Made by a program: the position numbers and the translations under genes. Below are positions 1,346-30,225 of a stretch of DNA of 35,878 bases, piece after piece (position 1 is the stretch's first letter; the number at the start of each line of letters is the position of its first letter). Under the pieces are notes generated by a model. It worked only from the letters and a program-made list of their open reading frames with translations. It searched no databases and was not told the origin of the DNA. Origin of the DNA: a virus; IMG/VR virus record IMGVR_UViG_3300037468_000444, positions 1 to 35,878 of that record; one strand, written 5' to 3'.

Positions 1346-1792
1346 ATGCCGGAGTGCCACACCTGCCGACACCGCCCCAAGCCGGGAACCGACTGGCGCC
1401 GCTCCGCTTGCCGCCGATGTACCCTGCCCGACACCCCGAGCCACAAATGCCGCACACACGTCGACATTGACGGCCACGAAAACCGCGACGTGGAGAGCCT
1501 CATCCTGCCCGAAGCCGACCCGCGCCGCCAAGACCACGCAGACGGCCGCCGCCCATTGCGCCCGGCCCTTCTGAAGGTCACGGCCGCCCTGCTGGCCATG
1601 CCGCCAGTCGCACGCGAAATCCTGCTTTTCCGCGTTGCACGGCCGGACGCCCCCCTGCGCGAGATCGCCGCGCGCTTGAGTATCACGGTCCAGGCGGCAC
1701 ACGACGCCCTGCACCGCGTGAGGCGCAAACACGCCTTTGTCGCCCGAATCATCCCCGCCCCCCACCACCGCGCCAGGAGTAAGCAGCCATGA
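1346..1792 (+). CDS. Zinc-knuckle protein with sigma-region-4-like helix-turn-helix
   Basis: The product has 148 residues from ATG 1346. A GTG six bases upstream is an alternative start. The N-terminus has a Cys cluster (C4, C7, C22, C25, C35) typical of zinc binding. Residues about 85-135 (PPVAREILLFRV, PLREIAARLSITVQAAHDAL) resemble sigma-70 region 4 or a LuxR-like helix-turn-helix, in which the cell-wide rule is recognition of promoter DNA. No region 2 is present, so this is not a full sigma factor. It is a candidate late-gene activator. It overlaps the methyltransferase start (ATGA). Confidence 0.6.
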   Translation: MPECHTCRHRPKPGTDWRRSACRRCTLPDTPSHKCRTHVDIDGHENRDVESLILPEADPRRQDHADGRRPLRPALLKVTAALLAMPPVAREILLFRVARPDAPLREIAARLSITVQAAHDALHRVRRKHAFVARIIPAPHHRARSKQP

Positions 1793-3240
1793 GCGACGCC
1801 CAGGCCCAGGAACCGCCCGCGACACCCGCGGCGCCCGTCCCCGCCCCGACCGTGGAGCACGTCCCGATCAGCAGCCTGACGCCCTGCGCCCGCAACAGCC
1901 GGAAGCACACCCGGAAGCAGATCGAGCAGATCGCCGAGTCAATCCGCACGTTTGGCTTTCTTCGCGCGGTCGTGGTTGACGCCGCCGGCGAGATCGTCGC
2001 CGGGCACGCCTCAGTCCTTGCGGCAGAGCGCGCCGGCCTGAAGACCGTGCCGGTCCTGCGCGCCGCCCACCTGACCCCGGAACAGCGCCGCGCGTTTCTG
2101 GTCGCGGACAACGCCCTGGCAGAGCGCAGCCGATGGGACAAAGACCTCCTGCTCGCCGACGTGCAGGCCATACTTGCAGCCGGGATCCCGGCAGACGCCT
2201 TTGGATTCAGCGAGCAAGACCTCGCCCGGCTCATGCGGACCTTTCAGCCGGCGAGCAAAGACCCCGGCGCTATGCGGCAGCCGGACTGCCCCACCCGCGT
2301 CAGCCCCGGCGACCGTTGGACGCTCGGACAGCACACGCTCGTCTGCGGCGACGCGCAAGACCCGGCGACAGTCGAACGCGCCACCCGGCGCCGCGCCGCG
2401 GACCTGGTATGGCTCGACCCGCCCTACAACGTCGACAACGCCGGCGTCGCGGCCGCGCACGTCAACCGGAAGGAATGGGACGGCCTCGCCGGCGACGCCA
2501 TGGATCCAGCCGCCTTTGAGGCGTTCATCGCCAAGGCCCTGCAGGCGGCCGCGGCGTCGGCACAGGAGGCCGCCGCCTGGTACGTTTGCCACGCCAGCGC
2601 CAGCCGGCGACAGTTTGAGCGAGCACTCGACCGCGCCGGCCTTGTCGAAAGGCAATATATCACCTGGGTCAAAGACAACTTCGTCCAAGGCCGCCAGCAC
2701 TACCACTGGCAGACCGAACCGATCTTTTACGCCGCCCGCGCCGGGCAGACGCCGGCCTGGTACGGCGGCCGCGACCAGACCACGGTCTGGCGGATCGACA
2801 CCGCCCTGGCCGGCCTGAACGAATACGACCTCGCCGACGGCCTTATCGTCACCGGCCCCGACGGGCACAGCATCGCCGTGACGCCAGCCACAGGCCGCGG
2901 AGGCCGGCGCCTGCGGACGATCCAACTCGAGGCCGGGCAGGAACTGCAGGTCGCCGGATTCAGGCCACAGAGCGACGCGTGGCGCTTTCGGCGCGACCCG
3001 ATGCAGGAGAACATCCACCCGACGCAGAAGCCCGTCGCCCTGGTACGCCGGGCAATCGAGAACCACACGCTCGCCGGCGGCCTCGTCCTTGACACGTTCG
3101 CCGGCAGCGGCAGCACCGTGATCGCGGCAGAGCAGACAGGCCGGCGCGCGGCCGTGGTCGAGATTTCGCCGAAGTACGCCAGCGCCATTGTGGAGCGATG
3201 GGAACAGACAACCGGCCAGGAAGCCACAAGGGAGGATTGA
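1789..3240 (+). CDS. ParB-domain/DNA methyltransferase fusion
   Basis: The product has 483 residues. The N-terminal part (about 24-150) is a ParB/Srx-like nuclease-fold domain (VPISSLTPCARNSR, GEIVAGHASVLAA). The C-terminal part is a DNA N4-cytosine/N6-adenine methyltransferase with DPPY at residues 210-213 and the SAM-binding FAGSGS at about 437-442, the order seen in beta-class enzymes. It transfers a methyl group from SAM to DNA. In phages this architecture is common and may protect phage DNA from restriction or act in packaging-linked processes. The target sequence cannot be read from the protein. The large block between the motifs is the likely target-recognition region. Confidence 0.93.
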   Translation: MSDAQAQEPPATPAAPVPAPTVEHVPISSLTPCARNSRKHTRKQIEQIAESIRTFGFLRAVVVDAAGEIVAGHASVLAAERAGLKTVPVLRAAHLTPEQRRAFLVADNALAERSRWDKDLLLADVQAILAAGIPADAFGFSEQDLARLMRTFQPASKDPGAMRQPDCPTRVSPGDRWTLGQHTLVCGDAQDPATVERATRRRAADLVWLDPPYNVDNAGVAAAHVNRKEWDGLAGDAMDPAAFEAFIAKALQAAAASAQEAAAWYVCHASASRRQFERALDRAGLVERQYITWVKDNFVQGRQHYHWQTEPIFYAARAGQTPAWYGGRDQTTVWRIDTALAGLNEYDLADGLIVTGPDGHSIAVTPATGRGGRRLRTIQLEAGQELQVAGFRPQSDAWRFRRDPMQENIHPTQKPVALVRRAIENHTLAGGLVLDTFAGSGSTVIAAEQTGRRAAVVEISPKYASAIVERWEQTTGQEATRED

Positions 3241-3608: not shown

Positions 3609-3941
3609 ATGGAAACCGGACAGAACGGAATCGGCCTCGAAATACCAGCCTGGGCAGGCATACCAGCCCGGCCGGCCGGATGGGCAGGACCAGGATCAAT
3701 GCCGTTTGGGATTGCAGAGACCATCCCGCCCCTGGCCGGCTTTCCGCCCGGCCGGACGCGCGTGCGGCAGCGACATGACAGCTACCCGGTCGTCCACGTC
3801 TTCACCGCGACCGGGATCCGAGCTTTCCACGTCGATAAGTGGACGGACGGAAGCTGGCGCCCGTATTGCGAGATCGGCAGCAACACGACGGTCAAACAGG
3901 CCCCGGCCTTTGAGCCGCCGCCATGCGGAGACGCGCAGTGA
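3609..3941 (+). CDS. Hypothetical protein
   Basis: The product is 110 residues. The ATG at 3609 follows the previous stop by three bases. The first half is rich in Pro, Gly and Ala (EIPAWAGIPARPAGWAG) and low in complexity. The second half (YPVVHVFTATGIRAFHVDKW, then CEIGSN) looks like a small beta-rich domain. It is coupled to the second ParB-like gene through a GTGA overlap at 3938-3941. No function can be assigned. Confidence 0.55.
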   Translation: METGQNGIGLEIPAWAGIPARPAGWAGPGSMPFGIAETIPPLAGFPPGRTRVRQRHDSYPVVHVFTATGIRAFHVDKWTDGSWRPYCEIGSNTTVKQAPAFEPPPCGDAQ

Positions 3942-4693
3942 CCCGCCCCGCCAAACAGCCGCCCTCCCCGCCCCCGGCCCTTGAGACCAGCACCATGCGG
4001 CTCGCCGACCTCATGCCGGCAGACTACAACCCCCGCACGATCACCAAGGCAGCCCGCCGCGGCCTCAAGGCCAGCCTGCAGCGATACGGCCTCGCCTCGT
4101 CGTTGACGTGGAACCGCAGGACCGGGCGCATCGTCGGCGGCCACCAGCGCGCCGCCGTGCTACGCGAAGACCTCGGCATCGAGGAAGCCGCCGTCACCGT
4201 GGTCGACCTTGACGAGACCGACGAGGCCGCCCTGAACGTCGCACTCAACAGCCCCGAGATCGCCGGCGACTTTGACCGCGCGAAGCTGGCCGCCCTGCTT
4301 GACGGGATCCAGGCCGCCGCCGCGGACACCTACAAGGCCCTGCGCCTCGGCACCATTGACCCCACACTTGACCGGATCCGCCATGAGCAGATCGTCGCCG
4401 GGATCGCCACCACCCTGGCAACCGAGGCCGAACACGCCGAGGCCGCCGGGATCGCCACGGAAGTCGCCGACGCGATCCGCGGGCACCTTGAGCGCGCCGC
4501 CGCCCGAGACCCCAAGGCGATAAACGCCGCTTTTGCCATCGTGGTCCCGTTGCGCCGCGGCCGCGACCTGCTGGTCTTTGGAGACCCGGATCTTGCCGAC
4601 GCCGTTGAGGAAATACGCCAGGGAGGAATCGACCGCCTGATGACCGCCGTCACGATAGGCCGCGACGGCACGAAAGGAGAAAAGGAACCATGA
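3938..4693 (+). CDS. ParB-like nuclease-domain protein
   Basis: The product is 251 residues from GTG 3938, which overlaps the upstream stop. An ATG at 3923 in the same frame is an alternative. Residues about 20-120 are a ParB-like domain: RLADLMPADYNPR, then GRIVGGHQRAAVL with the GGHQR motif at 67-71, and an acidic segment DLDETDEAAL. Unlike the gene at 1789 it has no methyltransferase part. The C-terminal half is helical and Ala-rich without a clear family. Phage proteins of this kind are usually DNA-binding and often sit beside modification enzymes, as here. Confidence 0.8.
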   Translation: MTRPAKQPPSPPPALETSTMRLADLMPADYNPRTITKAARRGLKASLQRYGLASSLTWNRRTGRIVGGHQRAAVLREDLGIEEAAVTVVDLDETDEAALNVALNSPEIAGDFDRAKLAALLDGIQAAAADTYKALRLGTIDPTLDRIRHEQIVAGIATTLATEAEHAEAAGIATEVADAIRGHLERAAARDPKAINAAFAIVVPLRRGRDLLVFGDPDLADAVEEIRQGGIDRLMTAVTIGRDGTKGEKEP

Positions 4694-4890
4694 CTTTCAC
4701 CCCGAGACAAGCACTGATGATCCTCGCCGCCGTTGACGCCCTCGCGCGCCACATGCGCCGATGGACGCCAGCCATGCGCCGGCGATACGAGCGCGCGGTC
4801 GCGGCCCTGAACCGCGCCCTTACGCGAGCCGAAACCGAAGCCGCCGACGTGCGCGCACGGACCCCGCACGCGAAAGGCAAGCGAGCGTGA
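4690..4890 (+). CDS. Small basic helical protein
   Basis: The product has 66 residues with a strong ribosome site (AAAGGAGAAAAGGAACC before the ATG). It is predicted almost wholly helical and very rich in Arg and Ala (ALARHMRRWTPAMRRRYERA), consistent with nucleic-acid binding. It overlaps both neighbours by four bases. No family is recognised. Confidence 0.6.
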   Translation: MTFTPRQALMILAAVDALARHMRRWTPAMRRRYERAVAALNRALTRAETEAADVRARTPHAKGKRA

Positions 4891-5207
4891 GCACCCCCGA
4901 CGCCGTCCGCGATGCCAACGGCAACCCCATGACGATGACGGCCACCGGGCGCAGCATGAGCATCCCCATCCCCGAACTGCCGCCGGCGACCTGCGCGAAC
5001 TGCGCGCACAGTTTCGCGGATGGTCCTGGAGGAGCTTTGGTCTGCCGCCGATACCCGCCGACGTTTCACCTGCGCCCGGTCCCCGCCGCCGGCGTCCAGC
5101 GCCCCGGAGCGCCGCCACCCGGCGCCCTGGTCGCGGCTGTAGGCTTTCCAAGCGTCCACGGCCTTATGTTTTGCGGCGAGTTTGAGCGATACCGGCGCGC
5201 GTTGTGA
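4887..5207 (+). CDS. Small cysteine-rich, probably zinc-binding protein
   Basis: The product is 106 residues from GTG 4887, coupled to the gene before it. The Cys pattern CANCAH at about 37-42, a further Cys before RRYPPTF and a late Cys in FCGEFE match small phage proteins with a C-x2-C...C...C zinc site that start with a similar 'C..C' and end with an aromatic-rich segment. Function is unknown. It is coupled by GTGA to the PP-loop gene. Confidence 0.6.
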   Translation: MSTPDAVRDANGNPMTMTATGRSMSIPIPELPPATCANCAHSFADGPGGALVCRRYPPTFHLRPVPAAGVQRPGAPPPGALVAAVGFPSVHGLMFCGEFERYRRAL

Positions 5208-6181
5208 CGCTTGAGCGACCAGCGAACCCCGACCGATGGCCAGGCATGTGCCGCGCCGTGGACGTGATCAACCGCGTTTGCGCGGATCACCCCGGCCGTA
5301 CCGGCATCGCCATCTCGGGAGGCACGGACAGCAGCATCGTCACCGACATCGCCTACAGGTACACCGAGCACCGCCCGCCATTGTTCGCCGGCATGTACGC
5401 CCGGAAGTGGCCAGAGACACGCGAGCACAACGACGCCACCGCGCGACGGTACGGCGCGACGATTCACCACCTGCCCGACGTGCGGCCGCCGGACCCGGCC
5501 GACTGGCAGCAACACGGATGGCCCTACCTCGGCAAGATGCTCGACCAGGCGTGGAACAAGGCGCACCGCGGCCGCGGAATGGGGTTTGATCTTTGCACAA
5601 CCGGCTGCTGCCAGCGCACCCTGGTCGAACCGAAACGCGCAGCCATGAAGGCCGCCGGCATGACCGCCCAGATCACCGGCGCCCGCGGATCCCAGGAGAA
5701 CAAGCCCCGAGCGATGCACGCGAAGAACCGCGGCCTGATCTACTACCACGCCGGCCACGACATCACGGTCGCCAACCCGCTCACCGGATGGACCGAACTT
5801 ATGCGCCGCCGATACGTTCAGACCCACGCCCTGCCCCTACATCCGCGCCGATACCAGGGCGCCACCAGCATCGGCTGCGTGACCTGCGGAGGCGGCAGCA
5901 GCCGGATCGGCTCCTGCGCCCAGATTCTGCGAAAACTTGACCCGGCCTGGTGGAGGCGACACATCGTCGAACACGGCGCCGGCCGGATAACGCTCGCCAT
6001 ACGGTTTGACGTGCCCCTGGACGTCATAGACGAAGCGGTCGCCCGCGCCGGCGGCCTTGAGCACCTCGCCGCAACCAGGCCGTGGCTATTCGACTTCACA
6101 ACCGTGCCGCCCTACCCCGGCCTCTCGCCGGACGAGCGCCCGACGTGGGCAGCCGCGGCCGCGACCGGAGGCACGCCGTGA
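5204..6181 (+). CDS. PAPS-reductase/DndC-like PP-loop protein with Fe-S-type cysteines
   Basis: The product is 325 residues from GTG 5204. The PP-loop SGGTDSS lies at residues 38-44, as in adenine-nucleotide alpha-hydrolases such as PAPS reductase and DndC. Further on is CTTGCC (C131, C135, C136) and EPKRAAM, then CVTCGG (C225, C228) and C238. These resemble the iron-sulfur ligands of CysH/DndC/TtcA-type enzymes. Family members activate a substrate with ATP or reduce sulfate esters. DndC acts in DNA phosphorothioation. Lying between a methyltransferase block and terminase, it may act on phage DNA or nucleotides, but assimilatory sulfur metabolism is also possible. Confidence 0.8.
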   Translation: MTLERPANPDRWPGMCRAVDVINRVCADHPGRTGIAISGGTDSSIVTDIAYRYTEHRPPLFAGMYARKWPETREHNDATARRYGATIHHLPDVRPPDPADWQQHGWPYLGKMLDQAWNKAHRGRGMGFDLCTTGCCQRTLVEPKRAAMKAAGMTAQITGARGSQENKPRAMHAKNRGLIYYHAGHDITVANPLTGWTELMRRRYVQTHALPLHPRRYQGATSIGCVTCGGGSSRIGSCAQILRKLDPAWWRRHIVEHGAGRITLAIRFDVPLDVIDEAVARAGGLEHLAATRPWLFDFTTVPPYPGLSPDERPTWAAAAATGGTP

Positions 6182-6681
6182 GCCGCAAGACCATGAAGAA
6201 AATCGCCTCCGTTTCCAGCGACACCGTCCGCGCGCTTGCGGCCGTCCAATGCACGCCGGAGGAAATCGCCCAGGTCGTCGGGACCACGCCGAAGCGGATC
6301 CGGCACGCCTACGCGGACGACATCGAAGCCGGCCGCCAACAGTCATGCGCGAGTTTGAAGCGCAAGCAATTTGAGATGGCCATGGCCGGCGACAAGACCA
6401 TGCTGATCTGGCTCGGCAAGCAGTACCTCGGCCAGGCGGACCGTACCGAGAACCGGCACGTCCTCGGCAGCGAAGCGGGCAAGCCCAAAGCCGTGGACGC
6501 GATGACCGCGGAGGAAATACAGGATGAACTCGCGCGAATGGACGAACGAAGACAGAGCCGCACGCTTGAGGCTACGGCAACACCACCTGCAGGCGACGAA
6601 CAACCTCCTGACCTTTGCGCGACTGAACTCGCCCGGCTACCAGATCCCGACGCACCTGCAGGCCCTGGCATCAGCACTTGA
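6178..6681 (+). CDS. Terminase small subunit
   Basis: The product is 167 residues from GTG 6178, overlapping the PP-loop gene. Residues about 10-60 form a helix-turn-helix (VRALAAVQCTPEEIAQVVGT, then a conserved IRHAYADD) of the kind that recognises the packaging site. The middle (FEMAMAGDKTMLIWLGKQYL) is characteristic of small terminase proteins, where an oligomerisation region precedes the tail. The last 50 residues are low in complexity and lie in a 158-base overlap with the large subunit gene. The call rests on motif and position. Confidence 0.82.
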   Translation: MSRKTMKKIASVSSDTVRALAAVQCTPEEIAQVVGTTPKRIRHAYADDIEAGRQQSCASLKRKQFEMAMAGDKTMLIWLGKQYLGQADRTENRHVLGSEAGKPKAVDAMTAEEIQDELARMDERRQSRTLEATATPPAGDEQPPDLCATELARLPDPDAPAGPGIST

Positions 6682-7993
6682 GGACATCGAAGCCGGCCGG
6701 ATTCACCGCCTCATGGTTTCCATGCCGCCGCGCCACGGCAAGAGCCTCCTGGCCGCAACGATTTTCCCGGCGTGGTTTCTCGGCCGGCACCCCGGCGCCC
6801 AGGTCGTAACGGCCACCTACGCCGAAAGCCTGGCGCTATACCACTCGCGGCAGGCCCGCCGGATCGTTGCGGAACCGACCTACGCGCGCATCTTCCCCGG
6901 CGTCCAGGGCGCCCGCGACGACAAGACCGCCGCGGCCGAATGGCAGACGAGCGCCGGCGGCAGCTACTACGCGGTCGGCGTCGGCGGCAGCCTGACCGGC
7001 CGCGGCATGGACCTCGGAATCCTTGACGACACGATCCGCGACCGCGCCACGGCCAACAGCGAGCGTTATCGCCGCGCCATTCTCGACTGGTATCGGTCCA
7101 CCTTCTACACCCGCCTCGCGCCCGGCGGACGGATCGTGGTCATCCAAACCCGATGGCACCCCCAAGACCTCCCCGGCACGCTACTCGCGGAGGCCGCAGA
7201 CGGAGAGCCGTGGACCGTTCTCGACTTCCCTGCCGTGGATGACGCCGGCGCCGCACTTTGGCCGGACCGTTGGCCGCGCGAGCGCCTCGCCGCCATTGAA
7301 CAGGCCGTCGGCAAATACGAATGGGCGTGCCTATACCAAGGCCGCCCCACGGTACGCGGAGGCAACATCCTGCGCGTCGTGACAGACGGCGGCCCGGCAG
7401 ACACAATCCGCTTTCACGACCGCCTCGAAGACTTCCCCGCGATCCCCTACCGCCGAGTCTGGGACGTTGCCAGCAGCGCCAAGCAGCGCGCGAAAGACGA
7501 CCCCGACTGGACGTGGGGCACCCTGGGCGCCGTCCAGCACGTCACCGACCCCACCACGCGCCAGCAGATACCGCACCTGTGGATCCGCGACTGCGCCTAC
7601 TGCCGCGAGGAAGCCCCCAAGCGCAACGCCCTGATTCAGCGCGTCGCCGAGCAAGACGGCCCAAGCGTCGAGATCGTGGTTGAGACTTTCGGAGCCTACA
7701 AGGACGCCGCCGCGACCCTTGAGCAGATCCTCCGCGGGCGCCGGATGATACGGCGCATCACCCTGCCAGGAGACAAGCTGGTGAAAGTTTCACCGGCCGA
7801 ACCGATATTCGAGGCCGGCAACGTCCACCTCTTCCGGGCACCCTGGAACGCCGAATGGATACGACAACACGCGGACTTCACCGGCCTCGATGGCGCCGGG
7901 CACGATGACGCGGTCGACACCACCGGGATCCTCGTCCAGCTTTCCCGAGCGCCGCGCGCCGGGATCGCGCACCCCGGCATGATGACGGCTTGA
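6524..7993 (+). CDS. terL: Terminase large subunit
   Basis: The product has 489 residues. It is the packaging motor: ATPase and nuclease that cuts and threads DNA into the prohead. Walker A is MPPRHGKS (residues 67-74) and Walker B ILDD (166-169). The C-terminal nuclease has acidic motifs around VWDVASS (about 309), VETFGAYKD and GHDDAVDT (about 458). The conserved N-terminus (SPGYQIPTHLQALASALEDI) begins inside the small-subunit gene, so the long overlap appears real. The stop TGA at 7991 lies within the repeated late motif preceding the portal gene. Confidence 0.96.
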   Translation: MNSREWTNEDRAARLRLRQHHLQATNNLLTFARLNSPGYQIPTHLQALASALEDIEAGRIHRLMVSMPPRHGKSLLAATIFPAWFLGRHPGAQVVTATYAESLALYHSRQARRIVAEPTYARIFPGVQGARDDKTAAAEWQTSAGGSYYAVGVGGSLTGRGMDLGILDDTIRDRATANSERYRRAILDWYRSTFYTRLAPGGRIVVIQTRWHPQDLPGTLLAEAADGEPWTVLDFPAVDDAGAALWPDRWPRERLAAIEQAVGKYEWACLYQGRPTVRGGNILRVVTDGGPADTIRFHDRLEDFPAIPYRRVWDVASSAKQRAKDDPDWTWGTLGAVQHVTDPTTRQQIPHLWIRDCAYCREEAPKRNALIQRVAEQDGPSVEIVVETFGAYKDAAATLEQILRGRRMIRRITLPGDKLVKVSPAEPIFEAGNVHLFRAPWNAEWIRQHADFTGLDGAGHDDAVDTTGILVQLSRAPRAGIAHPGMMTA

Positions 7994-13061: not shown

Positions 13062-15221
13062 GTGGCCACGCGCGCCAAGCGCACCATTGAACGGATGCGC
13101 CGGCGGCAGGCGGTCGGCACCCAGGAACTCGGCCGGCTCTTGGACGGCGCGCGCCGGCACGTTTCCGCGGCCGTGACCGGAGCGGCCGAGAACCCGAGGA
13201 CCGCGGCATCCTTCCGCGCGCGCGAAGCCACCTACGCGACCGTCGCCAGCATAAACGACGTCCTGCGCGAAGGCCTCAACGCCTGGCTGCTGCGCGAGGC
13301 CGGCGAGCTTGCCTTGACCGGGCATGAGCACGCCGTCGCGGATCTCCGCGAGTTTGGCACCCAAGACGTCACCGGCCGCGTCCTTGAGTTTGACCCCAAC
13401 CGGACCCGTCGCTATTTGGAAATCCTCTCGCCCGACAACGCCAAAGACCTGGCGGCCGTCTTTACCGAGCAGATGACCCGCAAGCAGGTCGGCGACCTGC
13501 GCCAGGCTTTCCTGCAGGTCGAGCGCAGTGCGGACCTCGAAGCCAAGCCCCTGCGCGAGCGCGCCAAAGACCTGCGCGCCGCCTGGCAGGAGAAGGCCGG
13601 CGACCAAGACCCGGCCCGCTTCATTGACCGCGCCGGGCGCCGATGGGACAACGACCGATACGTGGAGATGCTTTCCCGCACCACCAGCGCCCGGGTCGAG
13701 CGGGAGTCCTACATTGACACCGTGACCGCCGGCGGCATGGACGTCGTGCGCGTGCGCGCCGTCGGCGACACTTGCCCCACCTGCCTGGCGTGGGACGGCC
13801 TGCTCCTGAGCGTTTCCGGCAACACGAAAGACCTGCCGACATACAACCAGGCCCTCGCCGCCGGCCTATACCACCCGAACTGCGACTGCCTGCTTGAGGC
13901 CGTGATCCCGGAACTTGAGTCTGCCGACGTTGAACGGCAGCAGGCCGCAGAGACGCCAGCGGAGATCACCAAGCCAAAGCCGGGCGCCACGGCCGCGGAC
14001 CGGATCGCCGCCCTGCATCAGTACCGGGAACAGATCGGCCGCACGGAGGCCGCCCCGGCTCGCCCGCCGGAATACGACCGCCTCACCCGCGAGATCGATG
14101 CCGAGTATGAGCGCCTGCGCGAGACCAGCGGCAAGGGCAGCCTGCCGCGCCGGCAGGAACTCAACCGCGAGATTGCAGACTTGAGCGCGCAGCGCGAGAC
14201 CATCAGCGAGAAGTACTCGGCGGTCCAGCAACGCGCTGCGGAGCGCGCCAAGGAAACCGCGGCAGCCGTGGCGGCCGCACCGGCGTCCGCAAAGCCGCCG
14301 GCGATTGAGCCAGCCCCGACGCCGCCTGCCACGCCAGCGGAACCGCCCCACGCCGCAACCGAGCGCAGCCTCGCAACGGGCAAGATCACGCGCGCCAAGC
14401 AGATCGGCGGCACGGCAGAAACCGACAACATCAACGTCGCGGTCAAGATACGCCTGGAGGACGGAACCGAGGCCATCTGGAAGCCGGCAACCGCGGCCGA
14501 GTGCCTCGGCATGACGCACAAAGAGATCCGGGAACTGGCCCGCGATATATACGCCGACGCCCCAGACGACAAGCAAACCAACCTGTGGGTCCGCAACGTA
14601 ATCCGAGGAACCCAGGCGATCCACGAAGTGGCAGCATGGGAGGCCGCAAAGGCTTTCGGCTTTGAGCGCCTCATCCCGCCAACGGTCCCGCGCACCTACA
14701 GTGGAAATGTAAAGGCCGTGAGCGGCGCCGAACGCCTCACCAACGAGCGCGGCACAGCGCAGGCATGGGTCCCTGAAGCCCTCCCATACAACAGCACCAG
14801 CGGAGAAAAGCGCCACAACGTCACCACGCAGAGCGACGCCCGCGCGCTTTCCGTGTTCGACATGTTGGCCGCCAGTACCGACCGGCACGGAGGCAACGTG
14901 CTGGTCCGCAAGGACGGCAGCCTAGTCGGAATTGACCACGGCCTGAGCTTTGACGTGGAGCAACTGAAAGGACACGGCTCGCCGGCCGTACAGACCTGCC
15001 TGACCCCGCAGTGGGGCAGAATGAGCGACGCCGAGCGCAACGGCTACGCCGAGCAGATCGAACGCGGCACAAAGGCCATCCCCGACATCGCGCGCACGGC
15101 CGGCCTCGACAAAGATGAAACCTTTGCCCTACGATCTAGAGCCAAGGACTTGATCACGGCCCTCCGCAAAGGCAACGACGCCGTCCAGGCCCTATGGGAC
15201 AAGAACAGCGACGAAAAATGA
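13062..15221 (+). CDS. MuF-type minor head protein with C-terminal PI3/4-kinase-like domain
   Basis: The product is 719 residues from GTG 13062. Residues about 150-285 form the phage Mu F-like head morphogenesis domain: RWDNDRYVEMLSRTTSARV, then the metal-site CPTC (238-241) and HPNCDC (271-276). A coiled, Pro/Ala-rich linker follows (about 300-435). Residues about 440-700 look like a protein/PI-kinase fold: ATP-site Lys in AIWKPA (K474), helix HEVAAWEAAKAFGFERLIPP, hinge-like QAWVPEA, catalytic loop DRHGGN (607-612) and metal site IDHG (624-627). MuF proteins fused to C-terminal toxins are known in temperate phages. A kinase at the end would be delivered with the head. Kinase activity is inferred. 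Confidence 0.85.
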   Translation: MATRAKRTIERMRRRQAVGTQELGRLLDGARRHVSAAVTGAAENPRTAASFRAREATYATVASINDVLREGLNAWLLREAGELALTGHEHAVADLREFGTQDVTGRVLEFDPNRTRRYLEILSPDNAKDLAAVFTEQMTRKQVGDLRQAFLQVERSADLEAKPLRERAKDLRAAWQEKAGDQDPARFIDRAGRRWDNDRYVEMLSRTTSARVERESYIDTVTAGGMDVVRVRAVGDTCPTCLAWDGLLLSVSGNTKDLPTYNQALAAGLYHPNCDCLLEAVIPELESADVERQQAAETPAEITKPKPGATAADRIAALHQYREQIGRTEAAPARPPEYDRLTREIDAEYERLRETSGKGSLPRRQELNREIADLSAQRETISEKYSAVQQRAAERAKETAAAVAAAPASAKPPAIEPAPTPPATPAEPPHAATERSLATGKITRAKQIGGTAETDNINVAVKIRLEDGTEAIWKPATAAECLGMTHKEIRELARDIYADAPDDKQTNLWVRNVIRGTQAIHEVAAWEAAKAFGFERLIPPTVPRTYSGNVKAVSGAERLTNERGTAQAWVPEALPYNSTSGEKRHNVTTQSDARALSVFDMLAASTDRHGGNVLVRKDGSLVGIDHGLSFDVEQLKGHGSPAVQTCLTPQWGRMSDAERNGYAEQIERGTKAIPDIARTAGLDKDETFALRSRAKDLITALRKGNDAVQALWDKNSDEK

Positions 15222-28376: not shown

Positions 28377-28588
28377 CCATCTACAAAGCCGTGACCATTG
28401 ACGCCCAGGAAGGCACGGTCATCGCCTGGACCACCAGCAAGGCCGACGCCTGCCGCCGTATCCAGCAGTGGCAGCGAGAAGGCATGAGCACAACCGTCGC
28501 GGCGATCTACCGGAAGACCGTCAAGCCCACCAGGGAAGGAATTGTCGCCTTTCTCAACACGCACACCCCCGCCCGCGACAACGGCTGA
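28373..28588 (+). CDS. Small hypothetical protein, end of accessory block
   Basis: The product is 71 residues from GTG 28373. Beta-rich start (IYKAVTIDAQEGTVIAW), then helix (SKADACRRIQQWQREGM). Its last 35 bases overlap the minus-strand recombinase stop region, so the two operons are convergent and share sequence. Function unknown. Confidence 0.55.
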   Translation: MTIYKAVTIDAQEGTVIAWTTSKADACRRIQQWQREGMSTTVAAIYRKTVKPTREGIVAFLNTHTPARDNG

Positions 28589-30050
28589 CCGAAAACCGCC
28601 TTTCGATTGAGCACCCCTCTGGGGTGCCAGCAGGGCGGTCCAGTCGAACGGCGTCCGCGTAGTATTGCGCGCGCCAGGAACCGTCCGGCTCGCGGACCAC
28701 GGAACGAACGTGAGCGCGCACCCAGGCCCGACGCGTGACCGCGTCCGCCGACCCGTCGCGCAGAGAGCCGGCCACGCCGCGCCACAGCGCCGCAACCTGC
28801 TCATGGCTTGGCGGTGGGGCAGCGGACAACGCCGCCTCGGCCGCGGCCGCCTCGGACTGCCAGTGGACGCCCGCGGCTATAGCGGCATTGAGATCCACGT
28901 TGACGCGGTCCAGCGCGGCCCCCGAGAGCCGCCCGGATCCCACGGCCTCCACCAACACCCGCGCCTGCCCATCGGCCGCGGCCGCCTGCCGCCGCGCGTT
29001 TTCCGCCTTGCCGACCGCCTCCGCGCGCCCCGACTGCCACGAAGACGCGAGCGCCTCGGCCGCAAGGCGCATCGTTTCGGCGTCGTACCCGAGCGAGAGA
29101 AGCTGCCCGACAACCTCGCCCTCCAGGGCATCGGCGCGCGCGTACTGCCGATGAGGACAGCCAACCGCATCCGAGCAGCGATAATAAGCAGCCCCCGAGC
29201 ACGTCGCCGGCGACATTGCCCGGCCGCACGCGCACCGCACCAGGCCGGCGAGCAGATAGTCGTGCCGTTGCCTTTCAGGCCGCGGAGCAGCCGGCGCCCG
29301 CTTGACCTGGCAGCGCCGCCACGTTTCGGCGTCCACCAGCGCCGGCACCGCGCCGGGCACAGACACGTCAGCATACTTGAGCGTCCCGGCGTAGATCGGG
29401 TTTGCCAGAGTTTTCAGAAGCGTGTTGACCGGCCACCCCGGAAACTGCCGCCGGACTTGCGTCGGCGTCGCGCCGGCCGCCACCGCCCGAAAGACCGCAA
29501 CCACGCCCGGACCGGCGACCGGATCCACCTCCAGCCGGTTTCCCGCCGCGCGCCGATACCCACGCGGCACCTTGCCGCAAGGCCACTGCCCCTGACGCGC
29601 CATGTGGAGCATCTTGTCGCGCGTTTTCTGAGCGCCCAAGCGCGCGAAGAACTCAGCAGAGGCGACCAGCAGGAACGCCATGAACCGCCCGGCCGGCGAC
29701 GTGAAGTCGATCTCGGGACGGACGGACAGCAGCCCGCGGCCGGCCTGGTTGAGTACGCCCAAGACGTCCACGAAGCCGGACATCGAGCGCGCGAGCCGGT
29801 CCAGGTCGAGAACCGCCAGCACGTCCCACCCGCCCGAGCCGGACCGACAGTCATCCAGGAGACGTTGCAGGCCCGGCCGCACGTTGGAAAGGCCGGACCG
29901 GAACTCGTCCTCGACCGCGCACACCTCCACGGCCGCCGGATACCGGGCGCGCAGGAACGCCCGCACGGCATCGGCCTGGGCGGCGCAAGATGTTTCACCG
30001 GACCAGTCCGACCCCCGGTCAGAAACGCGCGCGTAGATCGCGACCCTCAT
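28554..30050 (-). CDS. int: Large serine recombinase (phage integrase)
   Basis: The product is 498 residues from ATG 30050 (MRVAIYARVSDRG). The N-terminal resolvase domain has Arg8 and the catalytic Ser10 in YARVS, and later VLDLDRLARSM with the conserved Arg pair. It continues into a recombinase domain (ANPIYAGTLKYAD), a zinc ribbon (RCACGRAMSP, then YRCSDAVGCPH) and a coiled coil, as in phage serine integrases. Such enzymes integrate circular phage DNA at one attachment site without needing host factors. Its start is coupled to the membrane-protein gene upstream (ATGA overlap). The attachment site was not identified. Confidence 0.92.
   Translation of the reverse strand: MRVAIYARVSDRGSDWSGETSCAAQADAVRAFLRARYPAAVEVCAVEDEFRSGLSNVRPGLQRLLDDCRSGSGGWDVLAVLDLDRLARSMSGFVDVLGVLNQAGRGLLSVRPEIDFTSPAGRFMAFLLVASAEFFARLGAQKTRDKMLHMARQGQWPCGKVPRGYRRAAGNRLEVDPVAGPGVVAVFRAVAAGATPTQVRRQFPGWPVNTLLKTLANPIYAGTLKYADVSVPGAVPALVDAETWRRCQVKRAPAAPRPERQRHDYLLAGLVRCACGRAMSPATCSGAAYYRCSDAVGCPHRQYARADALEGEVVGQLLSLGYDAETMRLAAEALASSWQSGRAEAVGKAENARRQAAAADGQARVLVEAVGSGRLSGAALDRVNVDLNAAIAAGVHWQSEAAAAEAALSAAPPPSHEQVAALWRGVAGSLRDGSADAVTRRAWVRAHVRSVVREPDGSWRAQYYADAVRLDRPAGTPEGCSIERRFSVSRCRGRGCAC
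28611..28627. terminator. Hairpin in the convergent overlap
   Basis: GCACCCC and GGGGTGC pair perfectly with a three-base loop (TCT), 22 bases beyond the stop of the plus-strand gene and inside the recombinase 3' end. Without T runs on either strand, termination is uncertain. Confidence 0.3.
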
Positions 30051-30205
30051 TGCCTCGGCGAAATACGCAACGGCACGTCCGCGCGTTGACCCTTTGAAAG
30101 CGCGACCAACTGCCGGACGGCGTCGCGCGTTTGCTTCAAGTAACGCACGGCCTCGAACACCGCGACCAGCATCACCAGACCAAAAAACCCGATGACCACG
30201 TCCAC
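30047..30205 (-). CDS. Small membrane protein coupled to integrase
   Basis: The product has 52 residues. The GTG at 30205 has a perfect GGAGG site seven bases upstream, and the stop overlaps the recombinase ATG (ATGA). A single hydrophobic segment (VVIGFFGLVMLVAVFEAV) is followed by a basic tail (RYLKQTRDAVRQLVALSKG). Tight coupling to the recombinase on one side and to an RHH gene on the other makes translation convincing. Function is unknown. A role in superinfection exclusion or integrase control is possible. Confidence 0.65.
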   Translation of the reverse strand: MDVVIGFFGLVMLVAVFEAVRYLKQTRDAVRQLVALSKGQRADVPLRISPRQ

Positions 30206-30225
30206 GGCCCACCTCCTCGCTTAGT

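Follow-up and report, generated by a model that had tools for sequence, protein, structure and literature searches.

The open reading frame (ORF) at positions 5204-6181 of a 35,878-base IMG/VR virus record (66.9% G+C), the whole of which is called the window here, looks like an expressed gene of the PAPS-reductase superfamily whose product, on its residues, has an intact ATP loop and a conserved quartet of cysteines of the 4Fe-4S type, without the machinery of sulfate reduction. The reading that we favour, at a probability of roughly 0.4, is that the protein belongs, as a divergent member, to the phage PAPS-reductase-like family and is an ATP-dependent 4Fe-4S enzyme acting on a substrate other than sulfate.

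The gene and its surroundings in the window

The ORF matches PF01507 (E=4.4e-16; 59.8 bits against a Pfam gathering cut-off of 22.5), with sub-threshold PF00733 as the only other Pfam hit, and phrog_424, phosphoadenosine phosphosulfate reductase (E=5.4e-14). Its GC3 (0.84) is the same as that of its neighbours, and the two matches together with this neighbour-like composition indicate that the gene is real. Cysteines lie at residues 16, 26, 131, 135, 136, 225, 228 and 238. The preliminary description had named an SGGTDSS motif and the last six of these cysteines, and had placed the gene between a ParB-methyltransferase block and the terminase; all of these are present, in the following order:

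1789..3240, + strand: fusion of ParB_N and N6/N4 DNA methyltransferase (PF01555, E=1.8e-23; PF02195, E=3.4e-7; phrog_498, E=4e-124)
3923..4693, + strand: stand-alone ParB-like protein of 256 aa (phrog_9353, E=7.8e-27; phrog_620, ParB-like, E=1.1e-24; no Pfam match)
4887..5207, + strand: cysteine-containing ORF of 106 aa (CANC...C...C, from the sequence), overlapping the start of the PAPS-like ORF by GTGA
5204..6181, + strand: PAPS-reductase-like PP-loop / 4Fe-4S protein, 325 aa, GTG start (PF01507, phrog_424, AlphaFold2, Foldseek)
5315..5335, + strand: codons for SGGTDSS (residues 38-44), the ATP-pyrophosphatase P-loop; S38, G39, G40, D42 and S43 invariant in 94 sequences
5606..5611, + strand: codons for C135 and C136, first half of the predicted 4Fe-4S site; invariant in 94 sequences
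5876..5887, + strand: codons for C225-x-x-C228, second half of the predicted 4Fe-4S site; invariant in 94 sequences
6178..6681, + strand: probable terminase small subunit, its start overlapping the stop of the PAPS-like ORF by GTGA; precedes the large subunit
6524..7993, + strand: terminase large subunit (phrog_38, E=2.8e-85; PF03237)

The GTGA overlaps with both neighbours suggest that these genes are translated as one run. The 106-aa ORF has no Pfam match and is possibly a zinc ribbon, its zinc binding being read from the cysteines. A longer version of the putative small subunit (6082-6681) matches phrog_12540, of unknown function (E=4.8e-5), and phrog_309, terminase small subunit (E=0.0069). 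Among the 45 other proteins of the window, in a record that may be a fragment, no DndA, DndD or DndE Pfam domain was found, nor was any cysteine desulfurase, sulfate-assimilation or other sulfur-pathway gene. Relatives of the window terminase occur in phages at 34-39% identity, all of which are without a PAPS-like gene, and a search for relatives of the portal protein gave none.

Three other genes of the window deserve mention. A large serine recombinase-like ORF (28554-30212, - strand), with a resolvase-type start and a zinc ribbon, makes it probable that the phage is temperate. Directly upstream of the ParB-methyltransferase gene, a protein with several cysteines (1304-1792, + strand) has a weak match to sigma-70 region 4 (E=3e-4) and is a possible late-gene regulator. 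The phage minor capsid protein at 13062-15221 (+ strand) carries a C-terminal PI3/PI4-kinase-like motif, DRHGGN...GIDHG, at residues ~595-636 (PF00454, E=4e-7), which suggests a kinase-like domain fused to a head protein.

Viral relatives and their neighbourhoods

Searches of viral contig, phage, plasmid and genome collections found no close relative of the protein. Distant ones occur widely in phages: an alignment of 11 diverse relatives was too divergent to serve as a scan query, so four subfamily queries were run against viral contigs instead, and several hundred loci were obtained. With the phage PAPS-reductase-like proteins (phrog_424; Burkholderia phage JC1-type, Enterobacter phage Tyrion-type and NatCom_17901-type) the protein shares the SGGxDS loop, the CC and CxxC pairs and the absence of a C-terminal ECG[LI]H, but it is distant from them, at ~13-23% identity and with 3.29 changes per column on its very long branch. 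The PP-loop and CC...CxxC occur together in 203 of the 219 viral relatives extracted, the exceptions in the first relative set, where these were listed, being mostly short or truncated ORFs; ECG[LI]H occurs in none of the 219. A PAPS-reductase-family protein of Rhodococcus plasmid pRHL3, encoded near a CRISPR RAMP gene, has an SGGKDS loop and PF01507-type similarity in common with the query but, unlike it, neither CC nor CxxC. One relative's locus, in a record labelled as a bacteriophage (MT838064.1, 542-4064), has what appear to be DndD- and DndC-like genes next to a PAPS-like gene of the phage type.

When the query was aligned with 93 viral relatives, the sole invariant columns were S38, G39, G40, D42, S43, C135, C136, C225 and C228, an invariance favoured by the pre-selection of these relatives for carrying the motifs. 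An earlier alignment with 10 other phage-record proteins, made without a motif filter, returned all nine of these columns as invariant and, in addition, G105, P107 and P192. The invariance of C135, C136, C225 and C228 argues that these cysteines are not there by chance. In the 94-sequence alignment C131 and C238 are not conserved and no further cysteine is shared between the query and its relatives; some members of the nearest group, the JC1-type, have just the four. The set of six possible iron-sulfur ligands proposed earlier is thus probably reduced to four of its members.

An AlphaFold2 model built from the 94-row alignment (mean pLDDT 78.4, pTM 0.78) predicts a PP-loop fold of the PAPS-reductase type, as had been expected. 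The top Foldseek match of the model is APS reductase 2goy (E=5.9e-8). With VIA-align, the model is matched to the PAPS domain of FAD synthase 8rom (Z 18.9, 2.5 A, 172 aligned), to CysD 1zun_A (Z 17.8, 2.6 A, 167 aligned) and to APS reductase 2goy_A (Z 16.2, 3.6 A, 189 aligned), while the sulfurtransferases LarE and TtuA score lower (Z about 13-14). The fold is common to all PP-loop enzymes, and such matches say nothing on the substrate. DndC does not appear among the structural matches listed, an absence that carries no weight as evidence.

The genes around the relatives were compared by within-locus permutation, and the resulting p-values are nominal, several tests having been made. In family A (91 dereplicated loci), ParB lies within two genes in 8 cases against 3.1 expected (p=0.005), N6/N4 methyltransferase within three genes in 14 against 9.4 (p=0.04), and a radical-SAM-like protein within two genes in 4 against 1.3 (p=0.02); C5 methyltransferases are not enriched by this test. 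Pfam matches in the 148 genes within two positions comprise N6/N4 methyltransferase (6), ParB_N (6), C5 methyltransferase (4), D12 (2), EcoRI methylase (1) and Mom (1), whereas the 148 control genes six to nine positions away gave C5 2 and at most one each of the other methyltransferase, ParB_N and Mom domains. Taken together, there are 13 methyltransferase domains in the near genes against 2 among the control matches listed. A ParB-methyltransferase fusion of the same kind as that of the window lies at most three genes from the PAPS-like gene in 5 family-A loci. The radical-SAM-like phage protein, of ~300 aa (L160:2131-3030; also in L165, L048, L122 and L175), is at most three genes from the PAPS-like gene in 5 of the 7 loci that have it.

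Neighbourhood enrichment was not seen in the NatCom group (42 loci). In the 54 loci of the JC1-type group, the one nearest in sequence, the PAPS-like gene is embedded in virion modules, and neither a methyltransferase nor a ParB gene was found within about 7 kb. These JC1-type genes (L229-L308) adjoin virion structural genes, and the genes closest to them come back at fixed positions from locus to locus. The idea that PAPS-like genes lie beside methyltransferase genes as a rule was accordingly weakened, given the p=0.04 for N6/N4, the lack of a C5 effect and the absence of any signal in the two other groups. Enrichment in family A and none in the NatCom or JC1-type groups make the link with DNA modification real yet partial: it is real where ParB is concerned and modest where methyltransferases are, and the nearest sequence group lacks it.

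Comparison with CysH and DndC

Six annotated CysH proteins were used as controls. In all six the P-loop is altered (SSFGTE, SGAED or SSMGD), the CC...CxxC quartet is complete, a lysine follows CC at a distance of four positions, and both xGRW and the catalytic ECG[LI]H are present. The 5204-6181 protein resembles assimilatory APS/PAPS reductases (CysH, e.g. 2goy) in its PP-loop fold, its CC...CxxC 4Fe-4S motif and its side of the tree, and the spacing within the motif is 89 residues against 88 in Acinetobacter CysH. Its loop, however, is of the intact ATP type, and the reductase P-loop, the lysine after CC, RxGRW and the catalytic cysteine with its ECG[LI]H are absent. CysH and DndC both keep the lysine, whereas the query and members of the nearest group have a leucine in its place, and their catalytic site may therefore be different or weaker. 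NCBIfam CysH models score at most 43 bits against cut-offs of at least 154 (NF002537: 43 against 154; others lower). Judged by these residues, the protein is not a working sulfate-assimilation reductase. The role in sulfur assimilation that the preliminary description held as its alternative is therefore disfavoured, since the catalytic features of CysH are missing. That the gene is a genuine APS/PAPS reductase, carried as an auxiliary metabolic gene (AMG), is very improbable despite the PF01507 domain, the matching quartet spacing, the best Foldseek match, a position beside CysH that the tree test did not reject (p-AU 0.455, the query being on a long branch), and the publication of similar viral genes as cysH AMGs (PMC8725595); besides the missing residues and the low CysH scores, other sulfur-assimilation genes were not found in the record.

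The protein had also been likened to DndC, and sulfur in the phage DNA had been raised as a possibility. DndC/SspD phosphorothioation proteins do combine an ATP-type SGGxDS loop with a 4Fe-4S site in the same region as in the query. E. coli B7A DndC uses C146, C273, C280 and C283, with C262 and C273 special to DndC (PMC12193691), a cysteine dyad noted as well in PMC10853773. Between C136 and C225 the query has no cysteine, and the DndC dyad is thus absent; it has an APS-reductase-type CC where DndC has a single cysteine, and it is 325 aa long against 465-540. No DndC model is among its NCBIfam hits. In a maximum-likelihood tree a split with support 100/99 puts it on the same side as JC1-type phage proteins and CysH, apart from DndC and the remaining phage groups. 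A clade with DndC was rejected (p-AU 0.01, from one DndC sequence and long branches), and a single DndC with long branches for both DndC and the query makes the evidence of the tree against DndC moderate. We regard it as improbable that the protein is a DndC-type subunit and phosphorothioates the phage DNA with the help of host IscS and unrecognised phage partners, although a little less so than a true reductase: IscS is able to stand in for DndA (PMC10853773) and a DndC-like role has been proposed for a Mycobacterium prophage PAPS-like protein (PMC8092301), but the dyad is absent, no DndC model is hit, and DndA, DndD and DndE domains were not found in the window. Of the earlier comparison, the PAPS-reductase half is supported and the DndC half is not.

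Proposed function and its significance

In the mechanism that we favour, ATP would be bound by the intact SGGxDS loop and hydrolysed to AMP and pyrophosphate, and a 4Fe-4S cluster would be carried on C135, C136, C225 and C228. A non-sulfate substrate would be activated by adenylation, after which an oxygen on it would be replaced, the likeliest sulfur donor being a host cysteine desulfurase; APS or PAPS would not be reduced. The substrate would most plausibly be a nucleic acid or nucleotide, possibly the phage DNA before packaging, and sulfur- or base-modified phage DNA is possible. What the data show directly is the gene, its fold family, the invariance of the loop and cysteines and the loss of the reductase features; cluster assembly, pyrophosphatase activity, sulfur transfer and DNA as the substrate are inferred. 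The case for this enzyme is built on PF01507, the model matches, the invariant loop and quartet, the lost CysH features, the relatives free of ECG[LI]H and the ParB/methyltransferase context of family A. Counting against it are the JC1-type virion modules without methyltransferase or ParB, the NatCom and C5 nulls, and a desulfurase not found in the record. Thiolases such as TtuA and LarE ligate their cluster by three cysteines and leave one iron free for sulfur. A four-cysteine cluster without such a free iron is a poorer fit to sulfur transfer, and the lost lysine after CC and the lack of an additional conserved cysteine are further points against it.

The strongest competitor to this proposal, possible but unlikely, is a tRNA thiolase-like or base-modifying PP-loop enzyme whose target for adenylation or modification would be a base, a nucleotide or tRNA, with no phosphorothioation involved. 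Structural matches to TtuA, NcsA, TilS, LarE and FAD synthase are consistent with it, as are the radical-SAM-like genes near 4 family-A members and a neighbour of one relative that belongs to the Mom family; the generality of the PP-loop fold, however, leaves those matches uninformative on the substrate, and no RNA-binding domain was seen in the protein. It is rather doubtful that the fold has been kept without its chemistry, in a regulator or virion-associated protein such as a ParB-partnered co-activator like IbrA/IbrB. ParB-like proteins nearby in the window and enriched near family A, the virion genes around the nearest group and the loss of the conserved lysine would suit such a role, but the strictly invariant ATP loop and cluster cysteines argue for retained chemistry. 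IbrA has a C-terminal DUF3440, a domain that Pfam did not match in the 5204-6181 protein. Bolder still, and slightly more doubtful, is the proposal of a third, viral PP-loop/4Fe-4S branch, neither sulfonucleotide reductase nor DndC, which would work with ParB-family and methyltransferase proteins to put sulfur or another hypermodification into phage DNA at packaging.

Phage homologs of PAPS reductase without an assigned role have been described before and marked out as worth study (PMC11437467), and the 5204-6181 protein adds a divergent member to this known, unexplained family. Phage genes of this type are often labelled cysH and counted as auxiliary genes of sulfur assimilation. The catalytic cysteine is missing in every viral relative collected and the ATP loop and Fe-S cysteines are present in nearly all, so many of these cysH labels may be wrong, and may stand for a widespread viral enzyme family with a testable activity.
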